From assembly GCA_036971615.1 (NCBI GenBank), contig JAYKKR010000008.1:682001-746000 (forward strand): DNA of 64,000 nucleotides. Direction: 5' to 3'. The notes under the pieces are model-generated. The model had not been told where the DNA came from, did no database searches, and saw only the letters and a list, made by a program, of their open reading frames with translations. Below are positions 7,453 to 60,771 of the stretch, one piece after another. Every line of letters begins with the position of its first letter. Position 1 is the first letter of the stretch. The DNA comes from Amyloporia xantha (taxonomy: Eukaryota; Basidiomycota; Agaricomycetes; Polyporales; Adustoporiaceae). The translations under genes and the position numbers were made by a program.

Positions 7453-7459
7453 AGCTCCG
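7453..7459. other. Left target-site duplication of the giant element (AGCTCCG)
   Basis: AGCTCCG abuts the left terminal repeat and recurs at 29064-29070 abutting the right one. The F-box paralog at 48917-48923 has the single uninterrupted AGCTCCG at the same place of its intron 2, as expected for an empty site. One more base each side (CAGCTCCG versus AAGCTCCG) gives an 8-bp version with one mismatch. Confidence 0.85.
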
Positions 7460-7486
7460 TATGAAGGCCCTTATTGGACAAAAATA
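7460..7486 (+). repeat. Left terminal inverted repeat of the giant element
   Basis: It reads TATGAAGGCCCTTATTGGAC followed by AAAAATA. The right end, read inward, has TTGATGGGCCATATTGGAC followed by AAATATG. The match is strongest over ATTGGACAAA. An A-rich run follows on both sides. Confidence 0.8.
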
Positions 7487-7499
7487 GCCAAACACGGCC

Positions 7500-7840
7500 C
7501 CGTCACCATGATACTTGAGGATTTAGGTGGATACCCTGTGATATAGTGATATACTCGAGTATTCATCGTTATCTCTGAGGATCCCGGGTGATCGATCTCT
7601 CACATGAACTCATCCTAGCATGGCTCCCCCTTAATACCGGGTATTTGCCTCATTCCTTCTCGTCAATGTCACTTGTTGACCAATCACCTATACTCGTTTA
7701 TTCCTGAGTATTACAACCGCCTTGTGTATACCTGAGTATTCAGCATTATCTATGTGGATGGCATGATCCTCCTTTCACTTGTCTACCATGCATGATCCCT
7801 GTATATTCTCGAGTATTTCCAGGTATGAAAATTTGGGAAC
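7500..7840. promoter_or_regulatory. Left subterminal repeat cluster (TACTCGAGTATT family)
   Basis: Several copies or half-copies of a palindromic motif occur, including TACTCGAGTA at 7552, CCTGAGTATT near 7703 and 7731, and TCTCGAGTATTTCC near 7806. The same motif family is clustered at the right end. Such arrays next to terminal repeats usually serve as transposase-binding sites. They also lie just upstream of the HECT-like gene start, so a promoter role is possible. Confidence 0.55.
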
Positions 7841-7910
7841 CCCGTCTGACTGCCCCATCCGAACACTGTCTCGTTGCTGACCTGTACATTCGTCTTCGCT
7901 GCCCGCTATC

Positions 7911-10900
7911 ATGTCTGCGCTGAATTCCACTATCCCCACAGCCGTCGTTCTTTACATTCGTGATCTCTGTCTTGTTCCGGAATGCCTGTGCGCTGAATGG
8001 TGTAAGTCTATCTTTGGGCTCAGTGACATATCCTTACCGCAAACATCTGAGGCATGTTTGTTTTTCCCCGTCTCAATGCGCTCTACGTGCTCATAATCGT
8101 ATCTAGCTCCCGGTGACACCCACAGAGATTTGTGCTGCATGCCATCATCCGTGGTGGTCTCATTCAGCGCAGTCAGCGATTCAAAACGACCCTCGCCTAA
8201 GTCGTCTCTGTTGGAATAAAGGCGGCGGGCTGGAAGTCACACACTGCGGCGGTTTTCATCCGGTCTGTGCTGCTGCTTTTACCATGTGTTCATCAGTTAC
8301 TAATTCATTGATGTGCAGGCTCCGTCTGCAGAAAATGGTTCACCTTCTGCACCGTGCGTCTGTGGTGGCACGTGGGCAGCCCATCGCCGTGCCATGTATG
8401 TATCTTTTGTCTTCAGTCGGCTACTTTATTCATTAATCGCTGCCAACCCGTCATCTGACAGCTTGTCACATTTACCAACTCAGCCAGCGGTGCATTCACC
8501 GCTGCCTGTCACGTCGACTTTCCTCACAGGTGCTTCCACAAATCTCAATCCCCTGGTCATGCCGGCCGCTTCGCTCTCTTTGCTCCCTTCGCTCGGGCCC
8601 GTGGTCCCTCAATCTGATACCGCCTCTCAACGATCCTTACTCCAAGGTGTCTCTCCGGCCTCTCCTGCTCCTGTTCCACCTTTTGGCTCTCTGGCTTCTG
8701 CGCCTCCTATTGCTGCATTTGGAGGTCTACCTGCGGTCTCTTCAAACACTAATGTCGCCACCTTACGTCGCACTAGTGCCGCTCGTGCCCGGACTCAGGC
8801 TGACTCCCGTCGGCAAACTACAGGTCGGTCGCGCATCACATCTCGAACCCCATTCCCATCCACTCTCCCTCATATCCCTACCGCTCCCACACCACGCAAC
8901 TTAACTGTCAGTGTCATGCTGGTGCCCTGTACGGTATGTCCACGTCCAATTTGGCTTATTATTCATCACATAATTGCTCCTACTAGCTCATCAGCAAGTA
9001 TCACACCGACAAGCGCAAACCACCCTCATGTGGGGTTCGCAATGACGACGTCGGATTCATCATCAAAAGCGCGCAGTCTCATCATCTCTATTTCGATGTT
9101 TCAATTCCGCTCGATGGCCTCTCAGAGAACGCTGAAGTGTGGCATCCGTTCGCTGCCAAGGTTACGGAACACTTGCAGTCTCATCAGATCAGACTGCCGC
9201 CTCCCCCGGGTGGCCGCTCAGATGATGAATTTTCGACGCTTCGGATCACATTTCTGAAACGCAGTCAGCGCACGAGCATGCAAGACCATGAGACGTATCA
9301 GTTGAGGCATTGGTCAAAGGCAATTTCGGGGCCTACCGTTACGCCTAAGTTCCTAGATGAGACCGCAGCTCCATTTCTCCATCCCTACGCTCAGAACCAG
9401 CGTTTATTGTGGATTGGTGAGTTGTATTTTGTCGTCCAAATGCTTGACACTCACTGTGTTTGATCAGCACCCCGTTATGGGAACATCAGCGCTCCCATCC
9501 GCGATCTCATTGGTGACGACGAGCAATCATGCTTATGTCAAGTGTTCGACCATCCATGCTTTTCCTTCCGTTTTATGGCATGAATGTCCATGATGGAGGA
9601 TGAAGACTTCGATGGCTCCCCTTACTGCTGCAATGAAGACTGTCCCCCCTGTGAAGATTGTGGCCGCCGTGACTTTGTTCATGAGGCCATTCTGGCACAG
9701 CAAGAGCATGTGGGTCCAATTGCTCCTGGTGCTGCACCAGGAGCTTCCAATTTCACCTCAGCTCCGTCTCGATCGGCATGCAGATCCCCTCGTGATTCTG
9801 TAGGTCCTTGTGAGCCCTGCCTTGTCTCCATGACCTCACCGGGCTACATCTCCAGATTGACCTCAATCCCCGTCCTCTCTCTAGACCCCGTTTAGCTGTA
9901 TCGGTAGGTGGTCTGTCCGCATTTGCATTGTCTGCTGTTAATCACATTGATGCTGATGTCAGCCCACGCCGACTCAATCGATTTTTGGTCCGGCATTCTC
10001 AATGGCCCCGGATGCCCCATCCACCACTCCTGAACTCCCATTGACACGACCCACATCTGAGTCTGCAGCTCTTCCCATTGGAACGCAGGACTCTCTCAAG
10101 CCGGATACGCCGCTCTGTGAGAGGGAGAGCCGTGGTGACGATGTAGCCCAGGCAGATGCATATCCGTATCCTCTCGAGCCCCCCGTTTTAGCACCTCTTG
10201 CCGAGCTCATCGAGTGGCGTGCGACCCTTGCTCAAGCGCTCACAGGTCACGTATTTGAAGGACCTGACCTGGAGATTGAAGGCAAAGACATCGACACAGT
10301 AGCTATTTGCTACTTGCAGTATCTCGAACATCTTCACAAACAGTCACTGCGCCATTCCTCCGATACTTTCGACACATCACCTGAGGTCCACAAGTGCACT
10401 CAAGTATCCTTGGAAGCTTTTTACATGGGACATCGCCACTTCAAAGTGTGCGTACTCACGTCTTTCCCAGGCGATTATCTCATTCAGGCTGACATATCCC
10501 TCTGCAGTCATCGAGGGTCTGGCCCGGGCGTTGAGCTTTCGGTGCTTCATCGTGCCGTTCAATTCATGGCTGAAGACTTCAAGTACTGGTCTGATCGTGG
10601 CGACTCCAAAATTCCTAACTTTCAAGCGTTTTCAACTGCGTTGGATTCTCGCATTGCCCGTTGGAGGGCGTATGGGACTTTGACCGCCCTGTATATGCTT
10701 CATGTTCACGCAGGTCCACCTCCAATCTCGCCGTTGCTTCTCATCGCCGTCCTCACTGATGTTGATTCATTCATCCTTGATGAGCCTACTCTTGCGTTCA
10801 TGGATCGTGCCGCAGCCATTGTTATGCATCCTTGGTTACAGCTTGAGCCTGGGGCTCCACTTCCCACCGATCATCGACATGAGGTTGCCCAATTTCTAAT

Positions 10901-11831
10901 GGACAAATTTGATCTTCAAGTGAGTCGGGTCACATTTTGAGTGTGGGCCTGTTCACATTGCATCACCAGTTAGCTGACATCCGCGAGGACTGCACAACTG
11001 CCAAGACGCACCGTATATTCACGTCCTCATTTCTTGCAGGCACAGTCTTTGGTCTGCGTGATCTTTGGACCAATTTTGACTTCATGGCGTTCCGATATGG
11101 GTTTGACTTGCCCTTGAGTCCAGGCCTCGGCATGATTTCAGTACGCTTCTGCTCTTCTATGACCCATGTTCACTGCTTACTGGTGGCATTCCAGTTGTTT
11201 CGTGCTTGTTTTTCTGCCCCTACGGTTCCTGCTGTGATCGCTACAATGTGCGATCGGCGCGTCAAGTCCTCCACGGAGGTTACCAAGGCCCTTGACTGTG
11301 ATTTGAATGCATCGTCAACGCCGGAGAAACAATGCTTTCAACGGCTTTTTTACCACCGTTTAGTCAGATATCTGGAAGGTGTCGGTCATCCTAACCATCC
11401 TCTTATTGATGAAGTGATCGAGCACTCACCGGATCTGCTTTCCAAAACCGATTTCGACGCTCATCAGTATGATCCCCTGCTACGGGCCAGGCTCTTTCTC
11501 TTGGCGTTAACCGATGGTGATCTAGTTCCTGTGGACAAATGGTGGACCATCGCCGTGAGTGTCGTTCACATGAATGATGCAAGGGGGCTCATGCGACTTG
11601 TGTGTCTAGCTTGAATTCCAGCCAGAAACACTTGCAGCGCCGAATACCAATGGGGTGCAAGCGCTCATTATTCGAACCTGTATGTCATCCATCGATGTGA
11701 CGATCACCCCGGAGCTTGAGGAGCTCCTGCTATATTCACCTACATCATCGCATGAAGCGACGCGCTTCGATTGCTATGTCCATGTACAAGTTCTAGATGC
11801 TGCACGTAGACGGGAGTACAGTACTATCTAA
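7911..11831 (+). CDS. Cys-rich protein with HECT-like C-terminal region (giant-element gene A)
   Basis: I splice 14 exons: 7911-8001, 8107-8262, 8319-8395, 8462-8933, 8987-9416, 9468-9541, 9599-9709, 9741-9791, 9856-9903, 9963-10447, 10508-10919, 10970-11140, 11195-11554 and 11610-11831. Phases agree at every junction from exon 2 on (1023 codons). Exon 1 joins exon 2 one base out of phase, so the start is uncertain or frameshifted. The N-terminus has paired Cys/His clusters (EICAACHHPWWSH, CVCGGTWAAH), followed by a Pro/Ser/Ala-rich linker. A second Cys cluster lies near exon 7 (YCCNEDCPPCEDCG). The C-terminal half (GPGVELSVLHRAVQ; ATMCDRR; LFLLALTDGDLVP; and a final RTCMSSIDVT with ELEELLLY) resembles a HECT-type ubiquitin ligase, with the Cys of RTC in the catalytic position. 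That assignment is from memory of the fold's pattern and is moderate. TGA at 9581 lies inside the 57-base intron 9542-9598. Confidence 0.7.
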
Positions 11832-12249
11832 TGCAATAACCTACGTACTCTGCAATGATCGGATAGACGTGTGTTTGAACAGTGCGGCTGGGTACTACAG
11901 AATGTTGGCAGATGGTATTCACTCGCCGCTCCGCATGTAGGGCTCACCAAGGGGAGGTCAATGCTTCACCGCTGACGTCGGTACACCGTCAATTTCATGG
12001 CTAGCCAGTGAACTGTCAGCAACAAATCCAGATGCGTTGAGCATGCACTCGCACCAATGAGACAACAACAACGCATGACCCAATCAGTGGCAAGGTGGGT
12101 CAAAACCTGTCTGCAGATGTGGTCCCTAGACCGGAGTCCTTCACAAAGGAGCTGCGAACGTGTGCACGCGCATGACCAAAAGAATAGCAAACTCGGAAGT
12201 ATAGACTCAGCTGCACCAGCCTGCCACAGGTAAGCGCCGAAGGAAACTC
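11832..12249. other. Non-coding interval inside the element
   Basis: No convincing exon follows the stop of the HECT-like gene. The sequence is GC-balanced with short broken frames and leads into the first copy of the palindromic repeat. Confidence 0.5.
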
Positions 12250-12372
12250 GATTCTCGGGTGCTTTCTGGAGGGTTAGGTCTCAAAGCGGGTATTCGACAT
12301 GTTTATTTCAGCACTTAACTAGCACTCAAAATTGAATTGGGACAGATAGCCACCATATTAGGACTAATAGTG
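12250..12372 (+). repeat. Palindromic repeat family P, copy 1
   Basis: It begins GATTCTCGGGTG and ends with CAAAATTGAATT...CCATATTAGG. The start is shared with copies at 20222 and 23628, and the AATTGAATT...CCATATT half with 23628 and, inverted, with 15541-15625. See the entry at 23628 for the clearest copy. Confidence 0.7.
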
Positions 12373-15300
12373 TCGATAGCCATTGTGCAGTAGTAGGCGC
12401 CTCAAGCGCGCGCTGGTTATCATGCTCCCCTCCTCGTCCTTATGGATTGTCTGGTACACCCATGGGTTCCTTTTCGCCGAGACACGCTCCTGCTATGGTC
12501 AGTTCCAGGCATACTCATCTATCCCCCATGCTTATAGTCCTTCTCTCGTTCTCAGCTGATTCTATTCAATTCACTGCGCCCGAGCTCATGGGCTGCTCGT
12601 CATTATTGCGGTCCTTGACGACAAGATACTGCCGCGGTTCGAATTCGCTATCCGGCCCTTCGAATGCGCATTCACCGTCCGATGCTCACGCACGAGCCCC
12701 CATAGCCTGAATGTCGGCGCTCATGAACGCGAGCGTCGTCCGTCTCGCTTGTAGCTCCAAGCAGCGCACTTTGGTGGATTATGCAGGTGTGTACTCGCTG
12801 CAGCAGTTCGTTGGCTCCCGTTCACACAGGCCCGTGCAGGCATGTACGTCATCTATTCAGCTATTCAGCGCGTGTGTACACAATCTTATATATGCGAAGC
12901 ACACTAACCGGCGTCCTTCGCTGTGCCCCACTCCACTCTCGCAGATTATAACTATCCACCACCACGGGTATGGAAGATGCCCTCTCTCCAGCGTGTGCTC
13001 CCTTCCATCCAACACCGAGTAGGTATGTAGCATGACCCAGAGGTACGGGACGACGGCTAGCCGTCGCCGTCACGATTTGCATCACCAACACAGCAGCAGG
13101 CCTGCGAATAGAGACGGCGCACGGCACCACCAGACAACGCGTCCGGCATGCTGTCACACGCGATCGGATGCCCGGCCGCTCAGGTTCGACCAGGTACGTA
13201 CATACTACGCTATGTAATCTATCTGACCTGATATAGCCTCCACAGAGTAGCGAACAGCAGTCCGCAACTTGTCGGTCGAGTGCTTGGCACGCTGCCAAGC
13301 TCCTGCCAGTTACCTTGGGCTAGGCTGAGGGTCACGATCCGAGGATCCGAGGGCCAGCGGACAGAAAGGAAGGTGCGGGTTTGGCATGAGCAGGTAGATG
13401 GAGGATATAAAGTGGCTTGCTGATGTTCGAAGGTCAGCATTGCCTCTGTCCTGTCCTTTCCTCTACTACTCGCCCGGGGCTCCTCTCAGCGACCGACAGC
13501 CTGTTGTCGCTCTCACATTGTCTATTCTCCCTGCGGTGCTACTCACTCCCGCCCAAGGACATTCCACTGTCGAGGTAAGTCAGCGGGCAGACGTGGCTAG
13601 ATGGATTCTGCTGATCGTCCCGGCGTTGTTTAGCTATCACTCCGCCGCGAATGCAGACGAATCAGTAAGCTGCTCATCATTGACTCGTCTGGAAGCAGCT
13701 CTAACTGTACATGTTTGTAGAATGGACTGCCACTGGCACTTCATAGTGCACGCAGCCGGGCCTCGCCGTTCGGAGACGATCGACCCCCACTCCCGCGCAG
13801 ACTCGGGCATGTCCTGACACGTCATTCGTTCAGCGATGCGCTCGCAAAACCGCCCTCTATCACAATTCACAGGGTACGTATATGTATTGAGGTGATATTG
13901 CACAGCTAACGACTACACTGCAGACCGGCCCCGGAGCTCGCTGCTGCTCTATCTACGACTACACGGAGACAACAACATATGTTCTTTCCCGCCGGTGGTG
14001 TCTGTACCGAATAACATCATGCACGAGTCCGCGCGCCTCACCGCTGGACTTGTACAGCATGCCGTGAACATCGTGCACACGGCCGACGAGCTCTTCTGAC
14101 AGCTTCCTGCGTTCGTGTTCACGATGCCGGGGTCTTCATGGGTACGTATTGCTTTGAACCGTTCTTGTATATTCAATGTCAGTGATGGACAGTGCGGTAC
14201 GGACACAGAGTGTTACTATAAGATAAATGGACCCGCCCTCCCGGAACCACGCGCGGCACGACTCTGCTCGGGCTGCCAGTGAACCCTCGGCAGACCACAT
14301 CTCCACCATGCTGCATGTAGTTTTGATCGACACGGACGGCACAGACATAAATGGACACTGAGCTCCAGCATACCACGCATGGCGCATGCGCAATGGACGA
14401 TGGACGGGTGAACATGAACGGCGCGTTCACGACCGGGTCTCTTCCTCCGCGGAGGGTGCATCGGGTATGTTAGTATTGAATAGCCCTCATGGTGTAGCAG
14501 GTACATACCTGGTTGATACCTGAGCAGCAGTGTACCGGATCATAGTACGAACCACACTGGACGTGTTGTCTGGTTCTGACCGTGCGCTGTTCGTCATGCG
14601 CGCCCAATTGCAGGGCACATCACGCTGGATGCGTGGTTTGGGGCTGCAGGTGCGTTGTGGTACTGCTACATAGCTGCTATGTGCTGAACGAAGGGGAGCA
14701 AAGGCGGACGTCCTGGACGCGCATGCTGCGGAGCCGTCATCTCAGGCAGACGGCTGGAGACCTCATGGTGCTTCGAGAGGGAAGAGGGAATGTGTGAACG
14801 CGGACGGTCCACTCTGTTCGGCTGGCGCTGGGAATGACCTCCTGTGCAGAGTATGTACTGGCACGTCTCTGGAAACCACGCCGCTTGCAGTCGCGAGGGA
14901 AACAGACGATGCCGCCGTGCACGAGCACCGACGTCCAGTCCCCAGCAGTGTGGCTGTGCATGCGCAACCACCACGTCCGGTACAGTGTGCACGGATGCGC
15001 AGTCTGCTCCTGCCCCGCGGGTGTCCTGCCCAAATACCCAGTTGTCAGTGAAAAGAGAAGGCCAAAGTACAATACATACTGTGTTATAATACATACTGTG
15101 TTATAAGTGGACGTGTCTGTAGACTGCAGACCATCCAGAGATGAGGAAGGCACCCCTGAGCTGGACCACCACACGCACCAGGGCACAGACGACCCGACAG
15201 TGTGGTGTGCATGAGAGGGGCAACCAGGCAGGCCAGCGAATTTGCACAGTGATTCACAAGCTGGCTTCGCGTGCAATCTCAGGCTGCAGGACTCGTCGGT

Positions 15301-15540
15301 CCTGGCTGCCCTCCGCCCCTGCAGGTAAGTCAACAACAGTATGAACACGAGCGCACAGAGGAACAGACGTACACAAGTCGCTTAGAGCCGAGAGCGGTCA
15401 GCCTGTTAAGGCAGGTGGGGAGACGTGAGGGAGGTGGTTGAACCCCATTGAGTGAGGAAGCAATACAGGCTGCCCTTGAGGCAGGCTAGCAGCTGCAGGC
15501 CGCGAGCGATTTATGCAGGCGCCTGGCGCCTGTCGCCCTA
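12373..15540. other. Unresolved intron-dense cargo region I of the giant element
   Basis: The stretch has many GTACGTA/GTATGT donor-like and (C/T)AG acceptor-like sites at intron-like spacing. A few biased open runs occur, for example HGLLVIIAVLDDKILPRFEF on the plus strand near 12589-12650, but I could not chain exons into a protein and recognise no family. Being bounded by copies 1 and 2 of the palindromic repeat in inverted orientation, it may be a nested element of about 3.3 kb. Confidence 0.4.
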
Positions 15541-15625
15541 CTGGATCATGTCCATCGCCACTGTAAGCCCAAATATGGGGCTTGATGGCTCTAATTCAAT
15601 TTTGTGGGCTAGTTAAGTCCTAAAG
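15541..15625 (-). repeat. Palindromic repeat family P, copy 2 (inverted half)
   Basis: Blocks AAGCCCAAATATGG, AATTCAATTTTG and CTAGTTAAGT are the reverse complement of blocks in copy 1 at 12318-12362. Only the outward half of the repeat is recognisable. Confidence 0.65.
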
Positions 15626-17863
15626 GTAACATCTCTAATACATACTTTGTGCCCTATCGCCGCAGAAACCACCCGAGAATCCAAACCTCATGCGCGCTTA
15701 ACAGCTCGCGCCGACGAGCATGTAACCCAAGTCGCACCGTCCCGCAGAACCTGCACCCTCCCGCTTTTGTCGAGCACACAGCTCGACCGTCCACCCTGCC
15801 CTTTCCGCGTGTGTCCCACTGCGGTGCGTCTTCTCCCCTGCCCCATCCTTCTCGCAACTGACCGTCTATTGCTCCCAAACGCTGCGCATCCTCGCGCGCT
15901 CATTCTCTCCCGAGCGAACGCCCTCCATCATGTTCGCGACCTTCGCCGCGGTGCACGCGCTGGGGCTGGAATGGGATTTACCATCCGCGGCGTGCTCACC
16001 CAGCTGACCAAGTGAGCCTTCCGTCTTTTCGCTTACACTTTCCCCTGACTGGCGTGGTCACGTTCAAGGCTTTTCAGAGCATTGAACGCGAGTGGCCTCT
16101 TCAATCTCTTTCGCACCCACGCTGATGTGTCATTGGTTCCGCGCCGAGTTTCGGACATAGTGCATGCCCCACTACGACTCACAAAGTAAATTCCTATTGC
16201 TAGATATACTACTGTCACATGAAGCTAACAGATATCATACATAGGCTTGTCCTGTGCCCGTAGGCCTCTCTGCCGACTGACTGCGGCAGCTCGTTGCTAT
16301 GCCCTTCACCTCTGCATGCAGACGAGAACGTTCACCCAGCCGAACACGCCGTCCTCGCACTGGTTGTTCTGGACAGCGAGGACCCGCACTGCCGTGCTCT
16401 GCATCGGAAGTCTGGCCAGATTATGGAGGAAGTATAGGGCATGGCAGCGCGTAGAGTCCGGTATGTATTCAACATGTCTTCGCGCATGCTCTGAACTGGC
16501 CCGTGCAGTCGGCGAGGGTCATGACTACAAGCCACCATCAGCGCACGCTTGTGCTGGCCGTTCACACCTACGGTGGGCTCATGCCCAAGTCTTCACGCAT
16601 GGACTGCTGTCCGCCGTCACAGAGCGCGCCCTTCGTGCTCGCGGCGCCCCCCCTTCGCGCTCCATACTCTACACATCCCTGCGCACCTTCGGCGTAGCAC
16701 CCACCCACCTCCTATCCAGCGCGCTCGTCCCGTCGCCTACCGCTCTACGACGTCTGCTACGAGACTGTAGCTATGCGCAGAGGGGCCGCCAAGACATGCT
16801 ACGTTAGATATGTACGTATTCTACCTCTGTCTGGGCTCGTGCGCGAGTTGCCCCGCCCGTCCATCGCTGACGTGTCCGTGATGGGAGAATAGATGTGAAC
16901 GTACGCGTCCGCATGAGCATCCGCTTCCCCGTCATCCCCGCGAGTGCATCAAAGGTAAGTACGCCACATCGTCCGGATTCTCTGGGCGCATGCCCTCGAC
17001 TGCTCTACATGGCGTGTAGAGTAGTCTCAAATATATATCTGTCTCTTCTATGTCATCAGCTGTCCCCAAAGTGCAAACAAGACACGCGTACATTTCGTCC
17101 GCAGCACGCAGACGAGCATCGCGACTAGGTGCCGTTGCGGACGCGCATGGCTACGGACAAGTTCCATCCGGCCGCAGTGCACGCGCTGCTGCTGGAATGG
17201 GACTCACCATCCGCGGCGTGCTCACCCAGCTGACCAAGTGAGCCTTGCGTCTTTTTCGCTTACACTTTCCGCGTGTCGTGCATAACTGCCCACGCGATTC
17301 ACACAGCCCGCGCTGTCCTGGTGAAGATGGTATGTACTATGGATCTATTTTACCATTTCGGCCCACTCCTCATGATTCGGATGGGCAGGACGCGTGCGGT
17401 CTCTGAACGGCTTATTCATTCGCTTCGTCGGCTACTTAACATGGCGCAGGCGCAGGTGGCGCACACCACGACCGAGCCACGCAGAGGCGCTGCAGCCTGA
17501 AGTCTCCGGCGCTGGGGCAAGACAGGCGCGACGTCCGTCCCTTGAGACAGCCATAGCGGGACGGTGAACGCTTGGGATGTGCGCCGCATCGAAATGTAAT
17601 TATCATGTACTCTACACTAATAGACTACGAAGATACCTATCAGTCGAAATGAGCCGTGGCTAGTGACACGCGTAAGCGATATTCGAGCTGACCACACAGC
17701 GTGCATGAGCGTGACATACAGAGTAAGTAGGCGAGGGAGTGGATGGGCGGGACGGATCGACTGGACGAGAGACCCGCCCTTGCATGCTCTGTATGGTAAG
17801 TCTGGCCAGATTAGACAGGAAGTGGAGGGCAAGGGGTGAGACACTCCTACAAGCCTGTAATAT
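15626..17863. other. Unresolved region II with internally duplicated modules
   Basis: Two modules are repeated. The block GGAATGGGA(T/C)TTACCATCCGCGGCGTG...CACCCAGCTGACCAA is near-identical at 15968-16060 and 17188-17275. The block with GGTAAGTCTGGCCAGATTA at 17793 is matched at 16410 (CGGAAGTCTGGCCAGATTAT). Plus-strand frames there read ...HALGLEWDLPSAACSPS and ...LHRKSGQIMEEV. They look like small exons of a multi-exon gene followed by donor-like sites, but stops after SPS in both copies prevent a clean model. Confidence 0.4.
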
Positions 17864-19972
17864 TCATGCATGAGCATGTGTAATTAGGCTGCCAAGGCGG
17901 GAGGGTGCCGACTCACGTTGGCGCTTCTGGGAGCGGGTTATCCTGCCCACTGGCTCGCCAACTAGGGGACCTCGTTTTGCACCATGCGTCAGCTGGTCTG
18001 AGACGTGGTGATCTTGAACCAGAGACGCATCAGCAACTTCAGTGGGTTCCATGCCCCCCACGTCTTCTCGCGCAGCCGCGAGTTGAGCGGCACACCTGGC
18101 CCGTGCTTCACGCCCTATAGCAGCCCTTTTGCGAATGGTTGCCGCCTTCGGCCGCTGGCTGGGGCGGCCTGGGAGGCCAGTATGGATCTGCTCTATCCTT
18201 AAATCTCTGCGCTGACAGAGATTTCATCTGGGGAACACTCACCTTCGGGCGGCGTCCGGGCTTTTGAGGGCCTGAGCGTTGATCATATTGTGCTTGAGCT
18301 CCCTGAACTCGGCTGGGCCTACTGTAGTGCTGTAGCCTGCATGCCGAACATCCTCGGCGAGTGTCTGAATGTCCATAATGATCAGCGGAAGCAGTCTACT
18401 GCCAATGGCTACACTCACTCCATAGTCGTATGTGTATTTCCACTCCTCAGGGCGCTGTGCCCGAATTGCTGAATAGACCTTGGACCCTGCCTGTTGATAC
18501 ACGAAGACTGGGACCCATTTGAAACTCGGCGCCTTTGGAGCATAGGTATCGACTAATTGAGTGGGATCACATGTGTATGGTTGACCTAACATCAGGCTAA
18601 GGAATATATCAATGCATGCATGCGGCCGAGGTGACTCACCAATGATGTGGTCTTCATCGAACAGACCCTCGGCAACAAACTCATTGTACATAGCAGTAGG
18701 AATTCGAACTCTCCACTTGCGGAACACGTGCATATACTGGTTTATGAAATTGTCATCAGATCGATAGTAGAAGGCCATGGGGTTATTGTGGTTATGGAAT
18801 GAAGCAACTCGCTCGCGATATTCAGTCGAGATCCATTGATTCATGTATGAGATTAGGCCAGCCTCGAAACGCGCAAACTTGTGGTCATCATCGCAGACAA
18901 TAATTGGGGGCTCGCCTGGAAAGATGCGCAGGAGGTGTAGACAGTCATGGGCAGTATGCCGACCGAACCCATTGAAGACCAGCTGGTTCGCACACATCTC
19001 CTCAAGGAGGCTCATGCGGAATGCTTTGCCACGATCATGGAGGATAGTCGTGCGCCACGTTGCAAGAGCTGCGCGTGCCGTCTGTGTCTCATGGTTCCAG
19101 TCTGGCCCATGGTGGTGATCCCAAATGTATCCCCAAGGCTACAAATAGCTGATGTGAGCTAGATAGTGAGAAGAGCATGCACACATACCTCTGAGCCAGG
19201 TTCTAGATCATTGGCAGTCCAGTGGCGGTCAAGACTGACCACATGGATTCGGGCAATCCTGGAATGGTCGGTGAGCACAAAGACGCGATCCTTGCATACC
19301 ACAGCAAACAGAATGGTCATCCCACGCTCATGATCAGGCTCCCGTGAACCGACTTCAACTAGGTCAGGAGGAATCACAAAGAACCGCATTTTCTCAGCCT
19401 TGCCCTGCTCCGGGTTATTGCCCGCGGAGTCCTGGGCTGTAATCCGGTCGAAATCCATGCGGTTAATGCACATGAAACATGCCTCCAAACCCGCGTTGAT
19501 ACGCACACCATGCTGCAAACAGAGTGGGTATTCGTCTATGCTAGCATGTGGTGCGGACGGACTCACATAGCCTGCAGCAACAAACAACTCCTTGCCGCGC
19601 ACCTTAAAGAACACCGCACCAGGAGTGTGAGGGCGGAGCAGGTGTTTGTATGTAACACCGCGGGCAGCGGCGCGCTGCGTGTCATGCATGTTCGCGGCCC
19701 ACCCATCGGGGATTGGCTCCAGGGCTTCAACATAACCACGGCACTCAGCAGTACAACTGACCCATGCGCACCTCTTGGTCCCCACAGCGAATGTGCGGGA
19801 AATATCACCACCGCTCCTGCCAGGAAGTTGGTCACCCTCGGGTTCCTAGGAGTATGCTCAACGATGGAGATCCTCACTCACCAGTCATCTCCTCATTCCA
19901 TGTCTTTCCATAGTCCACCTTCAAGCGGTCACTGCCATACACCCACGCTTCGGTAATTTGCTCCTCAGGCAT
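17864..19972 (-). CDS. Giant-element gene B, large protein of unknown function
   Basis: From the 3' end, exons 17864-18206, 18243-18585, 18640-19138, 19189-19512 and 19567-19785 join with consistent phase (576 codons). An upstream exon from ATG at 19972 (MPEEQITEAWVYGSDRLKVD) ends at a strong GTGAGT donor near 19875. Its join to the next exon is unresolved, perhaps through a micro-exon. Distinctive blocks are RCAWVSCTAECRGYVEALEP, FFVIPPDLVEVGSREP, GYIWDHHHGPDWNHE and PYTCDPTQLVDTYAP. The last exon is basic and Ala/Arg-rich and ends near RITRSQKRQR, which looks like a nuclear localisation signal. I recognise no domain. The open, phase-consistent exons argue that it is maintained. Its orientation matches gene C and the integrase. 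Confidence 0.65.
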
Positions 19973-20221
19973 GTGTGTGTCCTGTAACAGTCCGAGTTCA
20001 TACACTAACAATCCTTCACACCAGACGGAGATCGGCAAGCCCAGCAGATGAGACTACTGTTGGAGTTGAGATAGCCACAAGAAGTAAGCACAGGGAGACT
20101 ACGGCTCGAGGTGTGAGAAGTCGGGGAGCCGGGGGGCTCGAATGGCGAAAGGTACAGGACCAGGATTGCCAGGATGAGGTGGCAAGCATGAACAGGAGCT
20201 TGACGAGCGCCGGGGTAAACT

Positions 20222-20338
20222 GGATTCTCGGGCGAGTTTGGCATGGACAAGCCCAAATATGGCCTTTGCAATTCCTTTTGTCAGCCATTACGGACCTGAG
20301 AAAATCAAATCCAGAGCGATAGGCCCCCTATTAGGTCT
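20222..20338 (+). repeat. Palindromic repeat family P, copy 3
   Basis: GGATTCTCGGGCGAGTTTGG is followed by AAGCCCAAATATGGCC, then AAAATCAAATCC and GGCCCCCTATTAGG, the same block order as at 23628-23745. It sits about 250 bases upstream of gene B's start on the other strand. Confidence 0.7.
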
Positions 20339-23300
20339 CCCAGTTAAATAACTACCTCAATCCACATGGCGCCTAAGTCAATACTCGTTCGGCCAATCTT
20401 TCTCTGGATGGTGCGTCCCTTGTTGCTCGTATTGTCACTCCTTCGAACATCCCCCATCCATCCTTCATTTGACAGGCACTCGATCGCCAGCCCCGTCGCG
20501 TTTTGCATTTCGCTCGATGGTCCACGTCTAGGTTTTCGTCGATGTCTTTCTTTCCTACACAGTCCTCCGCCTCCACCTCTCCCTGCCAACGCTCAGTGCC
20601 CTCCGCGCGGATGGCCCTCGCACTCACGCATCTGCCCGTCCGTTTCTGATTGCCATTCTTCAGCGGACGGAATCGTTGAGACTGGACAGAGACACGTGGT
20701 CCAGTATGCGTGGCGCCTGTTCGTGCCAGTTCCTGCATGCGTACCAGGACCATCCTACTGTCCGTCCACTCACAGTCCTGCAGAGGACGATGGCCCCTAG
20801 CTCCTGCTTCACCCACCGCACTCAGCGCCTCCTGAGCGAAGCGTGCTCGTTCAATACATGCACAGTGGCTTTAGACAGAGGCCATACCTGACCTTTGGCC
20901 CAGACATAACATGCGCGAGCACTGAGCCCGTCCAAAGTAAGTCATTAAACATATATATTCCGCTATAGCTTGAACAGAGCTAATTACATTAAGCCGTTTG
21001 GTAGCATGTCTACAGCTCCTCGTCATATTCGGCGTTCCCTAGACGTGCCCGTCCCGTTCCCATCCTTACCCCACCTCTCGCGCGCTCTCCAGCATCGTCG
21101 GCACCGGTATGCTCTCCGCGTGCGCGTCACCTCGACTGGTGTGGTTTTCCCCACCGTCCGGCGAACAACACAACGCGAGCACGCGACTATCTCGAGCAGG
21201 ACGTGTCTCGAGTAGCGAGATCTCGCTATCACGGGTGAGTCGTACACATTCCCTCTCTCTGTCTGTTTAGGGAACGTGCGAGGACTCTCAGACTTCGCCG
21301 AGCTCCCGCTACGCCTCCCCGCCCTCGTCGTCAATTCCTGCGCCGTCCAATCATACACAGTCCTTACATCTTCGTGCCCCCTGTGTGCGAATTCCCATCA
21401 CCGTCGATCACGGGCGCGAGCGGATGGACGGACAGACGCTTGGATGCTGATCTGCTCATCCGCGCGAGTCTGCGCAAGTCCTCCCGGCGCAGATTCGGAT
21501 GCACCGACGCTCGACGTCCGCGCCTCCTTCTCGACTAGGCGAAGCTACCGGCGAGCTCCACGTGTGCCGTCGCCATGCTACTACGTAGTACATGCACAAC
21601 ATAGGACAGCCCCTCGCTGTCTGTTCCAACACTAGGCTGTGCGTCCTCACGCTTCCTTGCAACTCGACGTACGGGTCGTTCGGACGGCGTCCCTTCACCC
21701 ATCGCCCATTAGCTCCGCATATCGAACGGCTCCCGTCGTCGATCACACGGTGCTACATAAACGGCCCGCATGCCCAGTCTAGCTGTAGGCTGTCGGCTCT
21801 TGTCCGCGAGTTCCAGGTGCAGCGTGTACGGCGTGCGGATGGCCCAGCACCTTGGGTCCATGAGCGATCTAGACAGTGCTTGGAGTACGGCGCTTGGGCG
21901 GGCGGGCAGATGGACGTCCGGCATGTACTGTCTCGCTCTCGGACGACGATCGGTCGGAGCATATAGGGGCGAAGGCAATTTCTAATTGCTGAGGTTTCGG
22001 ACGTCTCGCGCGCAGAGACATTGTGGGCGCGGACGTCCGCTGCGACGTTATGTACCCATCATGTAATCTACATACATAACAAAGAATAAATCTATTCATC
22101 AGAATTAGCTGTGGACGATGGGTCTTGTAAGCAGGATCCGAGCTTACCATGCGCCGCTCGTGCCCAAGCGTGAACCATCGCCCCTTGCCGGATGGGCAAC
22201 AGGCTCTTGGCACCTGTGCTCGTCCGTCATTCTCGTCCATTCTCGCCCATCACAACGTGGGCGACGATGCATCCGCATCGTCCGCTGCTGCAAACACCCT
22301 GTTCACGCGCATCTACGGAGCAGGGACGACTCTGGGTCTCTGCCTATATTTTGTGCAAGGAGACTTCAAAGACGCGACACGGCTCCCGTTCGCGATCAGA
22401 GAGCTACTATCAGCGATGTTGTGCGTACAATAACAACAGCAACATTGAATAAACACGTACCGTACCACGCAACGTGTGCCGACGCCGTTCGATGTGCATG
22501 TGGACGTATTCGGCCCACATATAGTACAGGTCGATCTTCATTACTCCACGCTGAGCGTGCAGAAACAAATATTCGAGAGCGCACGTACCTTCGTACACGT
22601 CAGGACAATCACTTCCCAACCGATTTGTCGCTCCATGCCAAGATGTGCGGGTCTAAATCGTTCGGATACAATCCGAACGACGACTGGCGCCCATGAAAGT
22701 GGGTGCCACGCTGTAGATATTTAGTTCATGTTTCGGACGCACCAGGTTGAGCGGATAGCGTGTTGCGCGAATCAGGAATGGACGCGCGACTCGACAGTCT
22801 CCTCGGTCGCAGAGGTGCTGCGGAGGTTGAAGGCGAGAATTGAGACGGCGGCAGTCGAATACATGGCACCGCCATTGCACAGGGTACTGCGCCGCTGTTG
22901 GGATGCGCAGCGCGTGGGCGTTGAACAGGCTGGTCTTGGTTCGCTTGACCGTACTCGCCATGCAGACGTTCACAGCTGCGAGAGGACCATAGATGGCGCG
23001 CGAATAGATGAGCGGAGGCTCGCCGGGGGCGGGAACGGGAATGTACGATCATGCGCGGAGGCCCTGGGGAGTAGACGACAGCTGACGGGCGCACTGCCCG
23101 GGCGAGCGTAGATGCCCAGAAGCCGCCTGAGTGGAGACGGTGCTCGCTGCACGAGAACGACTCCCCTCTGCCGAACGCGAACACGCTCTCGAGCTAGAGA
23201 AAGGAATATCCGCGGGTGAAGCGCCAGTGTACGAGGTCTCCGCCTATGTTTGAGTTCCTGGCGGTGATATGCTTGAGTGTTCAAGGTTTGGTTGTTTTTG

Positions 23301-23627
23301 TGATCCCACCGTAGATGATTCCGGAGCCTTCGTGGGGGGTAAGCTTGGTCCAGCTAACCAATTTTAATATGCGCACGGAATGTTCACCTTCGTTGAGACA
23401 GGCATGTTATTGCTTTGCTATAGACTAGTGGTCCTCTAAACTTTCGAGATAGAGATTGACAGATGAAGCGAGTGCAGTCCGTCTGATGATCACAGAGGGC
23501 AGTGCATGAGACGTAGAACACAAGAGTGCAGACCAGCCCTGAGGTGGAATAGGAGACACCGTTGAGTGCGAGAGCGTTTGGCGCCAGATTCGACCCAAGC
23601 GCCCAGGCCAAGCGCTGAAGCAAAAGC
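20339..23627. other. Unresolved GC-rich region III between two palindromic repeats
   Basis: About 3.3 kb of GC-rich sequence has many overlapping but short frames on both strands and scattered splice-like sites. No protein family is recognisable. Equal size and equal bounding repeats with region I suggest a second nested element, but I see no clear sequence similarity between the two interiors. Confidence 0.4.
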
Positions 23628-23745
23628 GGATTCTCGGGTGAGTATTGCATGAATAAGGCCCCAAATAGCCATTCCAGCACATTGTTAAGAAAGCTAAGTC
23701 CCTTACAAAATTGAATTTGGGGCCATAAACCCCATATTGGGCGAG
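23628..23745 (+). repeat. Palindromic repeat family P, copy 4 (best hairpin)
   Basis: GGATTCTCGGGTGAGT is followed by AAGGCCCCAAATAGCC, a short loop, then CAAAATTGAATTTGGGGCC and CCCCATATTGGGC. The two GGCCCC-containing halves are partly complementary, so the repeat could fold into a hairpin or represent two abutting element termini. Confidence 0.7.
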
Positions 23746-24035
23746 CCAGGTATTCTGCACGGTACAGCGTCTAACTGGCTCATGTGGCCTCGAGCTCGCC
23801 TCGGCGAGCCATGTAGGCCTGAGCCCGAGAACAATGCATACTACGCCTCGGCATGACATTGTAACCTGTACTATAATAGCCTGCTTGGCATCTAACAGTA
23901 GTGTAATTAAAGATTACGACGGTAATAATGTGCGTGCACAGGAGACAGAAGATCTTGAAATAATGGTGATTATTAGTTAAAACAGGCCTCACTGGGACGC
24001 AAACTTACCATAGCATGAGGGACGTTCGCCCGTGA
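23746..24035. other. Spacer after palindromic repeat copy 4
   Basis: I see no exon here except donor- and acceptor-like sites near 24004-24009. It separates the repeat from the end of gene C. Confidence 0.4.
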
Positions 24036-26160
24036 TTATGCATGCTCCACCATTTGCTCCTCGACTGCCTTGCGTAAGTCCTTCCACTTCGTCAAAGCCA
24101 TACGAGCTGCTTTCCATTGTTTCATATCTGTCTGCATACTTGGCTCGCGGGTCGGCACTGGCAGAAGCGGGGCTTGGTTGAACTGATGCATGACTTCGAG
24201 AACCGTCGTCTCATCGGCAGACAGGTTGATACCATCATGACGTCGGTCTAAGACATACTGGTATACCTTCAAATTTTGGTTCACCCAGGTGCGATAATTT
24301 CTGAATGTCTGGGGGATGTGTGCCCATGTGGCGACGGTGTCTGGCCCAATGGTCAGAGTCCGGTTGTTGTAGATGACTTGAGCAAATTGGGTCTTGCGTG
24401 CGGTGAACACAATACCAATCTGACCGCAGATATGGTGAAGCTCCCGCTCGATGATATGTCTTTTGTATGCAGTGCCATACGCTCCTTCAGCCATGAACTG
24501 ATTCAAGCCGTGAATAAAATGAGGGAAAGTGGCGGTGAGATATGCTGCCTCTGGGCTCTGAGTCATATCGAGAGACTCGGTGGATATTGCTCGTATGATA
24601 CCCGACCCTGGAGTAAGAGAAGTCGGGTCTGATCCCTGTCATGAACGAAGAGTCAGATGAGTGGAGCGCAAGTAGAGGCTGTCCATGTGCTCACTGCGGC
24701 ATAAATATATAGCACATAGAGAGGGCTGGATGAACTGAAGCGCGTAGCGACGTGAGATCGACCGGAAGGAGGCACAGGTGTGAGAGCATAAGTCGCGAGG
24801 GGGAGCTCCATTGCGTTTGCAAATTTGCCTATCTCGTGAAAGCCTGCATCGTGTGGCTGGTAGTTCAATTCGGCGGGGATAGCGCAATTGGACTCAGCGA
24901 CATAGAGACTCTCCTGCGCCTCTGACGTGCCGGTAATCTGTTCCAAGAAGCGGCCGACCAGGGTGTCTGATGTGAGCAAGAGGCGAAGGACATCTCCAAG
25001 TTGGGCATCGTTGCCTGAAGGCAAACGAAGATGATCTTCGGTGAAGGTACGGCGTGTATTCTTCATGTGTATCCCAATATAAAAGAGAACTGCTTGAAGT
25101 TGAATGATGTCGTACACATGCTACTAAGATGGAGGTAGCGACTGACCTGGCATAAGGGGATTACTTGACACAATAGCATGGCCTTCATCTTCCCACAATA
25201 CACGAGATAAGGGTGACCAGGGGGAGTCCTGCAAGGGAGAGAAACCACGCATGTAGTTCATCTCTAAAGACTCCTGGGCAGTCATGGGACTCTGTGTCTC
25301 GGAACCAGCAGTTGTCATCTATACATAAGTTCAAGTTCGAACTATCAGCTTGACAGCATCGTAGCACGCACGACATGTTCTTGAAGAAGAGTATTAGCTG
25401 AGGGTGTTGACGGAATACCTGCCCAGTTGGATAATAAGTGAGCGCTGTTTGTTTCTATATCAGGCCTGTCAAGTAGAAGCGGAGTTATGTGTTGATTTTG
25501 AGCGGTTGGAGCCTGCACTGGAAGCGACTCCGATTGAAGAGAGTGCATTGCCTTCCTAGCGTCCCGCTCATGTTCATTGATCATTGTCAAAAAGGACTCT
25601 TGGTCATCTGGGCTGAGATGGCGCAAACGCATAAGCTCCTCGATGCATTCATCGGCAGTGGCGGTGGAAATGTCAAGACCATGCTGTTCAACTGTGACTT
25701 GTCCGTCGGTGATATCGCTGATGATTGAGTTTTGCTCAATTACCAGAACTGAGAGAGCAACATTGGTTTGTGAGTATGTGAATCGAACCAATGGCCCTTA
25801 CCAGATGCGCGCTGAGTGGCATCGCTGGCCCCCGGGGAGTCAACTTGCGCTTCACTGACTATTCCAGAAGACTCGTCGGTTTGTGTGGTAATGACATGCT
25901 CCGGAGATGGATTTTGAGCCTCTGAGTGATGAGGTAGAAATGTCAATGAAGAGCTCGGGGCGCGGGCCCATTGGGAAATAGGGGTATTCACGAGCAAACT
26001 CACCATTACCCTCGGGACCTGCGGAGCAGTGAGAATTTTGGTGAGGGCAATTGTCATTGAAGCGTTACTCACCTCGTGCAGAAAAAGAGATGTATTCATC
26101 TGCACGTCGGGCAGGTGTACGGTGTCTAGTTGAACGACGGGGTGCGGTAGGAGCAGACAT
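24036..26160 (-). CDS. Giant-element gene C, unknown function
   Basis: ATG at 26160 opens an Arg-rich N-terminus (MSAPTAPRRSTRHRTPARRA). Short introns follow at GTGAGTAACG, GTGAGTTTGC, GTAAGGGCC and GTCAGTCGC donors. Readable exons include SDITDGQVTVEQHGLDISTA, a Glu/Asp-rich helix (ECIEELMRLRHLSPDD), ...EDEGHAIVSSNPLMP, FYIGIHMKNTRRTFTEDHLR and, in the last exon, AYLTATFPHFIHGLNQFMAE. The protein ends ...WKDLRKAVEEQMVEHA at TAA. The last two exons appear joined by an intron from GTGCTATAT to GACAG (about 24625-24710). Exon borders near 25360 are less certain. I recognise no family. Same strand as gene B and the integrase, between them, so it is probably a conserved partner of the transposase. 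Confidence 0.6.
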
Positions 26161-26787
26161 GGATTTCCAAGCAGACCGGGCAGCACTGCGTCGCCCAAAA
26201 GGGCCTCCAGTGGACGTTATTATAAATAATTGGATACTTTATTCACCGCGGTTAGGTTTCGGATGACATTGATCGAAGATCAATTATGTGGCCCTTCTAG
26301 TGGTCGACCGCGGACATTGTCCCTGAACTACTGGCTAGTATCTTTGAGCAATGAATAGGACCATTCGATTGCACATGGTGCTTGAGACATCCTAGAAGAG
26401 AGCACTCACATTTGGGATCGACAGAGAGCTCATTGCCACAAGGGAATTAAGTCGATATAGTATGCATTCACCAAGGTAGAAACCGATTCAAGCTATTCAT
26501 CGTTTGAAGTGTTATGACTCGAGAGATCAGCACGGTAGCCTTACTACTATATACTCAAGGATAATGGGTAGGTGTTCACGCTTGGAAGAGGGCCTAGCAT
26601 CTTGTGGCTATGTGGACCGTCATTAATTGGGAATTTACGTGCAGATAACTTGAACATATTTAACCACTCAAGGGTATCTTAATTGCACTGAACTTCACAC
26701 GAGAGAATCCAATATCGAGAAGAACATGATTCAATTGATATGGGTGGTTAAGCACGTTGGATCGACTCCGGCTGAGCATACATAATG
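26161..26787. other. AT-rich intergenic spacer between gene C and the integrase
   Basis: No open frame of note is present. It is richer in A/T than the flanking genes and should hold the promoter of gene C and the 3' untranslated region of the integrase gene. Confidence 0.5.
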
Positions 26788-28565
26788 TTACATATAGCTA
26801 GAGCATGTTCCCAGACTAATCGTCGTACCACCATAGACCCTCGAAGACAAATTGACTACTGAGGCGAGCTGAATATCCAAGTACTCTACCTGCTGAGGTT
26901 GTAAAGGCGCATCGGGCGGCTCACATGGCACATCGGATAATGTAGCTGGGCCTACCGTAAAAGGGTTCTCATCCGCCCAGTCCTGCGGGTTATTCTCTAA
27001 GAGGTGGCTCATGAGAACGGCATCGTCAGCAACATCCCAATCGATGCCATATGAGCCAGGATCCGCTAGATCTTCATCAGCAGCAGTACGTGCTATCGTC
27101 CGAAGGCCACGAGGACCATCTTGTATCATGCTGAACATGAACATATCACGGGGCTGCGCTCACGCCGCCACGTATCTGGAGATGATGGGAGTTCCACGTT
27201 GTCGCCCAATCTTGTGCATCTTGGTTGATTGATGGGAGAAAAAGGTGATGGAGGAGCCAAATGTGTCCAGGAAGGCGAGGATTGAGATGACAGTTGGCTT
27301 CGAGGTCCAGAAAGAAATTCTTCCATTTCTGGCCAAAGCCGTGAGTCACATCGTACCAGAGCCGTTCGATACGTGTATTGTGCACACTGCTGTATACAAC
27401 AGGAATAGACGTCAGTGGAGACTCAACTAGGGGACTGTTATCACTGACCGACCCCAAATGTAGGACCCCCGTCCTGATCCTCGGTGAGCGTCCATCCATT
27501 CAGCGACAAGCATATTCTCAGTGCCGTGGTCTCCACGCACACGACTGGGTACCCCATGCTGGGCAGTAGCATGAAGGAAAAGATCAAGCACAGTCTGCGC
27601 ACGATTGTTGTTGTTGACTTGAATGCCAGTGACGAGTCGAGACTTTCCATCGATGAAGCAGTGAATGACAATTTTGAATCGGATGAGGCCTGCAAACACA
27701 GAATGAATGGACAAGTCAAGAGAGGACAATCACGAGTGTTCTCACCATGCTGCCCGTCATGATGCCACAATGAATTAGCACCTGCAACGGTGTAAGCCCT
27801 CCGATGAATCGTCCTGTCACCGAATGCACCGGGGGCACCATGCACACGTATGTAGGAAGCGGCGATCCTGTCCCTCGGGACATGATGACCAGCAGCCTTC
27901 AGATGGCCCTTCAACATACGACGTCCGAATGAGGGGAATATGTTGAGAATGGCAGACACAAAGATATCGAGTTCGTCATCAGTGAGAGACGATACAGGAC
28001 GTGTAGTGGACTGATAAGTGCGCATGAATGAGCCATCGTCTTGAAGAGTGTCGAGGTAAACAGGCGGGGCAGGTTCAGCAAGATTATATTCGAGAGCACG
28101 TCGTCGGATGGTGCGAGATGAACACCCAAGAACCGGGGCAATAAGGGATGGTCCGCGCAGATCAAGAGCATGCGCTAGAAATTGAGGATCGATGGCTATG
28201 CGAGGCCGTCCTTTGCGACCAGTTCGAATGGGCTGAGAGACTATGAGAGTGTCGGAGTCAGGGAGATCAGAGGACTGATGACATGCGTCATCAAGGGCCT
28301 CAAGCATAGCAGTGATACTGTCACGGAGAGTAGCCAGCTCCGCAGGAGGGAAGTGCGCTCGATTCTGTATCAATGTCACGGTCAGTCAGTGATTTGTGGA
28401 AATGGAAGATTGCAGTACCGTTTCGGCCGCTTGAAGAAGTGACAGTGCCTGTCCCTTCGTTTCACCTAGGCGGGTAACATCACCTAACTGAGTCCTCAAC
28501 GCACGAAGGACTCGATCATTGAGAACCACATAAGCTGAACGAATATTCTGCAACGGTTGGGACAT
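26788..28565 (-). CDS. DDE integrase/transposase (rve superfamily), giant-element transposase
   Basis: Exons 28419-28565, 27746-28364, 27449-27689 and from 27386 downward join in phase. The N-terminal part has a helical region and a recognition-like RKGRPRIAID/SRTIRRRALEYNL stretch. The catalytic core shows W-HH-D-GQHG, IDGKSRLVTGIQVNNNNRAQ, RVRGDHGTEN and GRVHNTRIERLWYDVT, giving the three acidic residues D, D and E in the usual spacing. IWLLHHLFLPSIN follows. These blocks define the animal and basidiomycete integrase-core family with the GRSxHNxRIERLW signature. The C-terminal part MFMFSMIQDGPRGLR resumes one base out of frame after a CCCC run on the coding strand (27150-27153 on the plus strand). 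This is either a frameshift or a sequence error. It would cut and join DNA at the element ends; location at the right end of the element supports this. Confidence 0.85.
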
Positions 28566-28739
28566 AGAGATGAATGATGTAGTGAGCAGTGTACCGACTC
28601 AGAGAGGTCACACGGTCAGCTGGGACACCATCGAGGCGTGAGACATCGAGCTGTGGCCTGAGTGGTAATATGGGGTATACATATGGATGCCATTAACGAC
28701 TACAGGAACATAATAAAACAAGACAGAGCAAAGCCGAGT

Positions 28740-29038
28740 GTCCGAGAATGATACTCAAGTATAATAGATCAGGGGAAATGTCGATCTGATCGAGAGCGAT
28801 GTGTGATCTTGAACATGTGACCTTGATACCCAAGTATCCACGCTCACGAACCTTGGGTATACAGTAGCACATGCAAAATCGAACGTAGAGCAGTGGCTCA
28901 CCATGTGTGAATACTTGGAAATACTGTGATATTTGAGGAAATATACAAGTTTTGGAGCGGATCCTTGGGTATTTATGGGGATAATTGAGTATAAACGAGA
29001 ATTTAGATGGATAACACTGGTCAGTTATGAGTTACGAC
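28740..29038. promoter_or_regulatory. Right subterminal repeat cluster (TACYCRAGTAT family)
   Basis: Motif copies include GATACTCAAGTATA at 28750, GATACCCAAGTATCC at 28824, CTTGGGTATAC near 28851, AATACTTGGAAATACT near 28910 and CCTTGGGTATTTATG near 28962. They match the left-end cluster in type and palindromic form and lie between the integrase start and the terminal repeat. Confidence 0.55.
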
Positions 29039-29063
29039 ATATTTGTCCAATATGGCCCATCAA
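29039..29063 (-). repeat. Right terminal inverted repeat of the giant element
   Basis: Read inward on the minus strand it is TTGATGGGCCATATTGGAC followed by AAATATG, pairing with the left repeat with few mismatches. The duplicated AGCTCCG follows at 29064-29070. Confidence 0.8.
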
Positions 29064-29105
29064 AGCTCCGAGCTCGAGGATCGAGCAAGGAGTCGTGTGA
29101 CTCAC

Positions 29106-59340: not shown

Positions 59341-59344
59341 TCAG

Positions 59345-59952: not shown

Positions 59953-59954
59953 TA

Positions 59955-60681: not shown

Positions 60682-60771
60682 TAAAAAAGATAAGAAGAGA
60701 TTAAATGAAGGATTATCCACAGATTAAAAAGATGTTCAGAAACATTAACTAGAGGCCAATAGACCAGATTG

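Follow-up and report, generated by a model that had tools for sequence, protein, structure and literature searches.

The stretch analysed here, 64,000 nucleotides of the basidiomycete Amyloporia xantha (GenBank assembly GCA_036971615.1, contig JAYKKR010000008.1, positions 682,001 to 746,000 of the forward strand; hereafter the window), contains at positions 7460 to 29064 a 21,605-bp element that is very probably a cut-and-paste DNA transposon of IS3EU-like kind. Comparison of three copies within the assembly shows a single unit with exact ends, inserted independently three times, each time with a 6-bp target duplication and with a counterpart of the target as it would have been before insertion; four predicted genes, called A, B, D and T here, moved together in it. 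An original prediction, made from the window alone, had proposed a single large multi-gene mobile unit with its own DDE integrase. We retain that reading on the strength of three near-identical copies, each with a 6-bp duplication of its own and each with an uninterrupted counterpart of its target site.

Copies, ends and targets of the element

The 46.8-Mb genome holds two more full-length copies, on contigs C12 and C3, and BLAST alignments of the window copy to them stop at exactly positions 7460 and 29064. Identity to the window copy is 99.64% for C12 (21,611 columns) and 99.76% for C3 (21,616 columns); among plus-strand hits above 60 bp, the sole others come from an internal repeat. A search with the transposase exon likewise gave one further match each on C12 and C3, at 99-100% identity. 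The original prediction had made the unit depend on its ends occurring together with the integrase elsewhere, and on both contigs they do. The 2-kb flanks on each side of the three insertion sites have no mutual similarity at E 1e-3, the sole cross-match among them being an inverted repeat internal to the C12 flanks.

The predicted terminal inverted repeats (TIRs) are real. The left one occupies 7460 to 7485 on the plus strand (TATGAAGGCCCTTATTGGACAAAAAT, starting TATGA) and the right one 29039 to 29064 on the minus strand (read inward, TTTGATGGGCCATATTGGACAAATAT, starting TTTGA), and in register they agree at 21 of 26 positions. At least 21 matching positions were reached by only 1 of 200,000 random place pairs in the window, and that best pair, identical at 26/26, is an inverted repeat elsewhere in the window. 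A genome-wide search with a terminal pattern made from both ends, allowing up to 3 mismatches, recovered the two repeats and gave 15 matches in all, while the same pattern reversed, as a control, gave 0. The three full copies account for six of these matches through their ends, and a small derivative on C30 described below for two; the remaining seven, on C1, C2, C8, C12, C13, C42 and C59, are weak matches or single ends.

Perfect 6-bp duplications flank all three full copies: GCTCCG in the window (7454 to 7459 and 29065 to 29070), CAGTGA on C12 and TATTTC on C3. The extent first proposed, 7460 to 29063 with a 7-bp duplication, was correct at the left end but one base short at the right. The register of the terminal repeats and the extent common to the three copies put the right end of the element at 29064, which leaves a duplication of 6 bp. 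All three copies terminate in ...TCAAA, and a 7-bp duplication is ruled out because its seventh base, A, is the last base of the element itself in each of them. Every copy consequently has TA at its left terminus and AA at its right.

Each of the three targets has an uninterrupted counterpart. In the window the insertion splits a host gene on the minus strand, presumably F-box-like as judged by eye, into a first half at 29074 to 29931 and a second half at 7030 to 7422; the halves lie 21.6 kb apart at this site and are adjacent in the paralogs. When joined, the window flanks align as a single 1,371-bp block, at 90% identity over the junction, to an uninterrupted paralog at 48465 to 49819 (minus strand), and at 78% to two others at 55228 to 56502 and 35820 to 37123. 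On C12 the element interrupts one arm of a near-perfect inverted repeat; in the opposite arm, at a distance of about 1.8 kb, the sequence is the same but lacks the element and has CAGTGA only once. The joined flanks on C3 match C7:777841-778175 at 99%, straight over the junction, with a single TATTTC. As a separate observation, the family of the split gene is large and clustered: besides the window loci at 7030-7422, 29074-29931, 35820-37123, 48465-49819 and 55228-56502 it takes up much of C59:411-760 kb, and a genome search gave at least 101 matches with 100 of 208 candidates scored.

Inside the terminal repeats lie arrays of palindromes and half sites, at 7511 to 7816 on the left (for example ATACTCGAGTAT) and at 28673 to 28992 on the right (for example ATACTCAAGTAT and ATACCCAAGTAT), as had been foreseen. 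The palindrome TAYYYRRRTA occurs five times in the 64 kb, four of these within 370 bp of an element end. The half site RRGTAT occurs 11 times in the left 401 bp and 9 times in the right 465 bp, compared with means of 0.9 and 1.1, respectively, and a maximum of 6 when the bases were shuffled 2,000 times. These arrays are probably binding sites for the transposase or a regulator.

Smaller relatives of the element are also present. A 455-bp sequence at C30:287919-288373 has both family ends and an imperfect 6-bp duplication (ACTTTC/CCTTTC) and is, by its sequence, a miniature, non-autonomous derivative. At C12:190349-190468 only the left 120 bp of the element is left, with CACTTC on both sides, which looks like an excision or repair remnant ending exactly at the right boundary. 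A partial copy on C8 retains the left 828 bp at 93% identity, with no further match within the 20 kb examined.

The transposase and its relatives

The DDE integrase lies at the right end of the element, where it had been placed. Its gene, T, has four exons on the minus strand at 26788 to 28565 (the 3' end, near 26.8 kb, is approximate), and encodes a transposase/integrase of the rva_4 family, related to those of IS3 and IS481. The spliced protein of the window copy, 410 amino acids up to a frame break, matches Pfam rva_4 at E 4e-58, and matches rve at E 2e-6, below the cut-off of that family. Invariant motifs in the alignment of homologs assign the catalytic triad to D252, D309 and E344, with 34 residues between the last two. 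Among NCBIfam models the protein matches IS481 at E 4e-9 and IS3 at E 1.6e-4, both far below the curated cut-offs for true insertion sequences; each model is matched by 15 of the 17 aligned T homologs (E<=1).

Homologs of T are numerous in the protein database (950 at E<=0.001). The nearest among the best 120 of these, at 69% identity, is from Sparassis crispa, and the named organisms among the same 120 are, we take it, all mushroom-type basidiomycetes. A structural model of the Sparassis homolog, with a mean predicted local distance difference test (pLDDT) score of 70, matches IstA of IS21 and retroviral integrases with a best E of 3.5e-5, and the TM-scores are low, mostly <0.5, since only the core aligns. 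A search of the T profile against solved structures by sequence found none. C20, C5 and C25 of this genome also encode IS3-type enzymes, which align to part of the query at 35-38% identity.

Both the type of enzyme and the 6-bp duplications point towards the IS3EU/GingerRoot superfamily. In the account of PMC10045372 its members have an IS3/IS481-related DDE transposase and 6-bp duplications, and TA..TA termini are constant in complete families; our element shares the enzyme type, the duplication length, the TA at its left end and the terminal inverted repeats. One described parallel is Styx of Zymoseptoria, which according to PMC10853768 is 7.9 kb long, has four open reading frames (ORFs) and an IS3EU-related DDD/E transposase, and also resembles the present element in its 6-bp duplications, conserved TIRs, single-end remnants and recent activity. 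The two differ in size, 21.6 kb against 7.9 kb, Styx being the sole IS3EU-type length compared, and in their accessory genes: the GATA, CCHC and DUF3577 domains given for Styx (PMC10853768) were not found in the models of A, B or D. IS3EU elements of rusts and Tuber carry TET/JBP and alpha-kinase genes (PMC12730594). Like ours they are fungal elements with several genes, and the rust families have 6-bp duplications; the rust families differ in their ends, TAYGG..CCRTA with TIRs >30 bp (PMC12730594), compared with TIRs of about 26 bp here, and neither the TET/JBP dioxygenase nor the alpha-kinase was found in the A, B and D models (Pfam, E<=1). Repeat surveys of Ganoderma and Phlebopus also list IS3EU (PMC8955403, PMC12411881).

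The original prediction had held that no named fungal transposon is comparable. This stands for the gene set, which is unlike those of Styx and the TET/JBP families, and falls for the general type, since multi-gene fungal IS3EU elements are already known, both Styx (PMC10853768) and the TET/JBP families (PMC12730594). What is new is a 21.6-kb element of this kind, its accessory gene set and the unusual completeness, in a single assembly, of the evidence that it moved recently; no 21-kb basidiomycete IS3EU is named among the literature matches listed, which come from open-licence papers.

Ascomycete Starships use a tyrosine recombinase (DUF3435) captain. The likeness to them is that of a large fungal element with extra genes, and the difference is the DDE enzyme and the inverted repeats; the tyrosine recombinase family is absent from the four modelled proteins (E<=1) and from ten ORFs (E<=0.1).

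Accessory genes and the middle of the element

Besides T, at least three further multi-exon genes had been predicted, and A, B and D are supported as gene models, which were drawn from reading frames and mostly GT-AG introns and in which several exon borders are approximate. Gene A, the leftmost, lies on the plus strand at 7911 to 11831 and has at least 10 exons and at least about 990 codons; an ATG at 7911 is a possible start, and exons before 8319 are approximate. Gene B (24036 to 26160, minus strand), downstream of T, encodes about 600 amino acids in about seven exons, some with approximate borders. Gene D (18242 to 19981, minus strand) lies in the middle of the element and encodes at least 534 amino acids in about four exons.

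The spliced models of A, B and D match 0 Pfam families at E<=1, and three portions (the C-terminal half of A, a part from its middle, and the C-terminal part of B) match 0 even at E<=10. Within the genome, the searched parts of A (545 amino acids) and of B (its C-terminal part, 341 amino acids) match the three copies only. Gene A had been described as a Cys-rich, HECT-like protein. Its N-terminal part is indeed Cys-rich, as judged by eye, but the HECT identity is not supported at the level of sequence: PF00632 gave no hit with the whole model at E<=1 or with the C-terminal half and middle part at E<=10, and the four PF00632 loci of the genome, on C12, C15, C45 and C20, all lie outside the element copies. 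The C-terminal half of A gave weak, unrelated matches only against solved structures (best E 0.075).

Gene D belongs to a rare family. Its one homolog in the protein database, on a 2.3-kb metagenome contig, is 66% identical over 42% of the query; within the genome its relatives lie on C16 and C37, at 42% identity, with a short one in addition on C24. The relatives at C16:574747-575460 and C37:35731-36444 have equal score and identity to D and lie on different contigs. A weak match of D to KEOPS Pcc1 subunits (E 0.006 over about 60 residues) was taken as chance, and a fold predicted for D from 2 sequences is meaningless at a mean pLDDT of 33.

Two stretches in the middle of the element, 11901 to 18000 and 20201 to 23900, contain no recognised gene. 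The former holds diverged repeats, among them an inverted pair at 12231-12393 and 15538-15700 (73% alike) and a direct pair at 15945 and 17171 (93% alike); the latter has units at 20206-20346 and 23610-23752 that are related to those of the former. One tandem repeat was found in the element. The roughly 12 kb in the middle, to which the size of 21.6 kb is due in part, thus reads as mostly old non-coding repeats together with gene D, and the repeats themselves as putative debris carried along.

No RNA family reached its gathering score in the window. Elsewhere in the window, positions of about 59001 to 61000 are AT-rich, with a guanine-plus-cytosine fraction of 0.37-0.39 compared with roughly 0.5 around them. 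This stretch holds an inverted repeat, in which the same peptides are encoded on opposite strands at 59915-60295 and 60242-60727.

Age, mechanism and alternative explanations

The copies differ at 41 substitutions where two copies agree and one differs (24 in the window copy, 10 on C12 and 7 on C3; three-state columns were left out). C>T or G>A changes make up 35 of the 41, and 30 of these 35 are at CpG, compared with 24.6% expected (p 5e-14), which is the pattern expected from the decay of methylated CpG. The host therefore probably methylates the copies at CpG, and they are probably decaying, to judge from this bias. The pattern agrees with the CG methylation of transposons reported for Agaricus bisporus in work cited in PMC12730594, which also cites hypermutation resembling repeat-induced point mutation as undetected in Agaricomycotina. 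Only 11 of the 41 substitutions, over three copies of 21.6 kb, are outside CpG; so few differences suggest that the insertions are very young.

In the mechanism that we propose, the DDE enzyme would bind both the short TIRs and the palindromes of the subterminal arrays and excise the whole unit, presumably by cut-and-paste chemistry. Insertion would follow at cuts staggered by 6 bp, whose repair would leave the 6-bp duplications. Genes A and B may have helper or protection roles. Gene D and the non-coding DNA around it were more likely acquired later and are carried as passengers.

Several observations weigh against parts of this interpretation. The fold of the T homolog matches retroviral integrases too, and is by itself not specific for IS3EU. 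The right end is AA where IS3EU elements end in TA in the account of PMC10045372, one of the four terminal bases thus deviating; because of this AA, and because the enzyme is placed by profile matches, we call the element IS3EU-like and take strict membership as putative. The counterparts of the targets are paralogous or allelic, and all lie in the same assembly. Furthermore, the three window paralogs are 6-7 bp shorter at the junction (29065-29085; for the closest one, GCTCCGAGCTCGAGG versus GCTCCGAGG), and the window target may possibly have carried a small earlier duplication, such as the footprint of an earlier excision there. The helper role of A is putative, with no homolog at E<=0.001 among the 7,994 best word-sharing candidates scored, a method that reaches fairly close relatives only. 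Finally, the reading frames of both T and A are broken in each of the three copies as assembled. Gene A is broken at a different place in each copy, the stop codon at 9581 being confined to that of the window; in T a 1-base difference at 27149 is common to the window and C12 copies, and the window copy has a further break at 27165; gene D, open in the window model, is frame-shifted on C12. With these breaks in T and A the autonomy of any of the three copies as assembled is only putative, and many of the breaks are 1-base indels that may be assembly errors.

The frame breaks raise the possibility, which we consider doubtful, that none of the copies is autonomous and that they were mobilised by an enzyme acting in trans, whose gene lies at another locus or has been lost in the meantime. 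Each copy has a broken T, the single base at 27149 that is present on C3 is missing from both the window and C12 copies, so that this break could predate one movement, and Styx copies with a broken transposase do move (PMC10853768). The C3 copy, however, is open at 27149 and broken at 27831, which leaves no T break common to all three; beyond the three copies the assembly has no T match above 38% identity (7 matches from 8 candidates), and the single-base differences themselves may be errors of assembly. A Polinton/Maverick or another virus-derived element is very improbable. Polintons also have 6-bp duplications and an integrase-like enzyme (PMC10045372), and the retroviral likeness of the T-homolog fold fits such an origin. 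The only Pfam families in the T, A, B and D models at E<=1 are nevertheless integrase/DDE families, and ten ORFs have none at E<=0.1; PolB and capsid families are thus lacking from modelled proteins and scanned ORFs at the level of sequence, T matches the IS481 and IS3 models, and a scan of IMG/VR for T relatives gave 100 pattern matches with 0 confirmed. Segmental duplication or a chance composite could by itself yield three near-identical long copies, but is scarcely credible when the alignments end at the same two bases, each copy has its own 6-bp repeat and the targets have uninterrupted counterparts; it is already refuted unless the assembly is wrong.

A further explanation concerns the size of the element and is compatible with its being an IS3EU-like transposon. 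An ordinary element of about 9.5 kb, made of A, B, T and the ends, would have grown to 21.6 kb as gene D and old, unrelated repeats became nested in it, and its giant size would have no functional meaning. We incline slightly towards this explanation. The regions at 11.9-18.0 and 20.2-23.9 kb lack a recognised gene and hold repeats that are 62-93% alike, fragments of the middle have 67-90% matches scattered elsewhere in the genome, modelled exons cover only 37% of the element, and its left and right parts together are near the 7.9 kb given for Styx in PMC10853768. On the other hand, a comparison of four repeat units by eye revealed neither the clean ends nor the target duplication of a nested element, and the same middle is present in all three copies, so that it moves with the unit. 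Such swelling would weaken the claim for a cargo-carrying class. A broader proposal, which we regard as unlikely, is that the element represents a separate giant IS3EU-like lineage of mushrooms, a DDE-driven, cargo-gathering counterpart of ascomycete Starships. In it a load of at least 20 kb would require A and B, two proteins with no recognised relatives, for its movement or protection, and D would be cargo.

Taken as an IS3EU-like cut-and-paste transposon, the element is an unusually clean case of a very large one in a basidiomycete, with three young copies, exact ends, 6-bp duplications and uninterrupted counterparts of all three targets. With its defined ends and defined enzyme it lends itself to the study of how 21.6 kb can be moved by an IS3-type integrase, and it offers a handle on the function of accessory genes in fungal IS3EU-like elements. 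Furthermore, the CpG-biased decay seen in copies this young suggests methylation as a mark that the host places on such elements.

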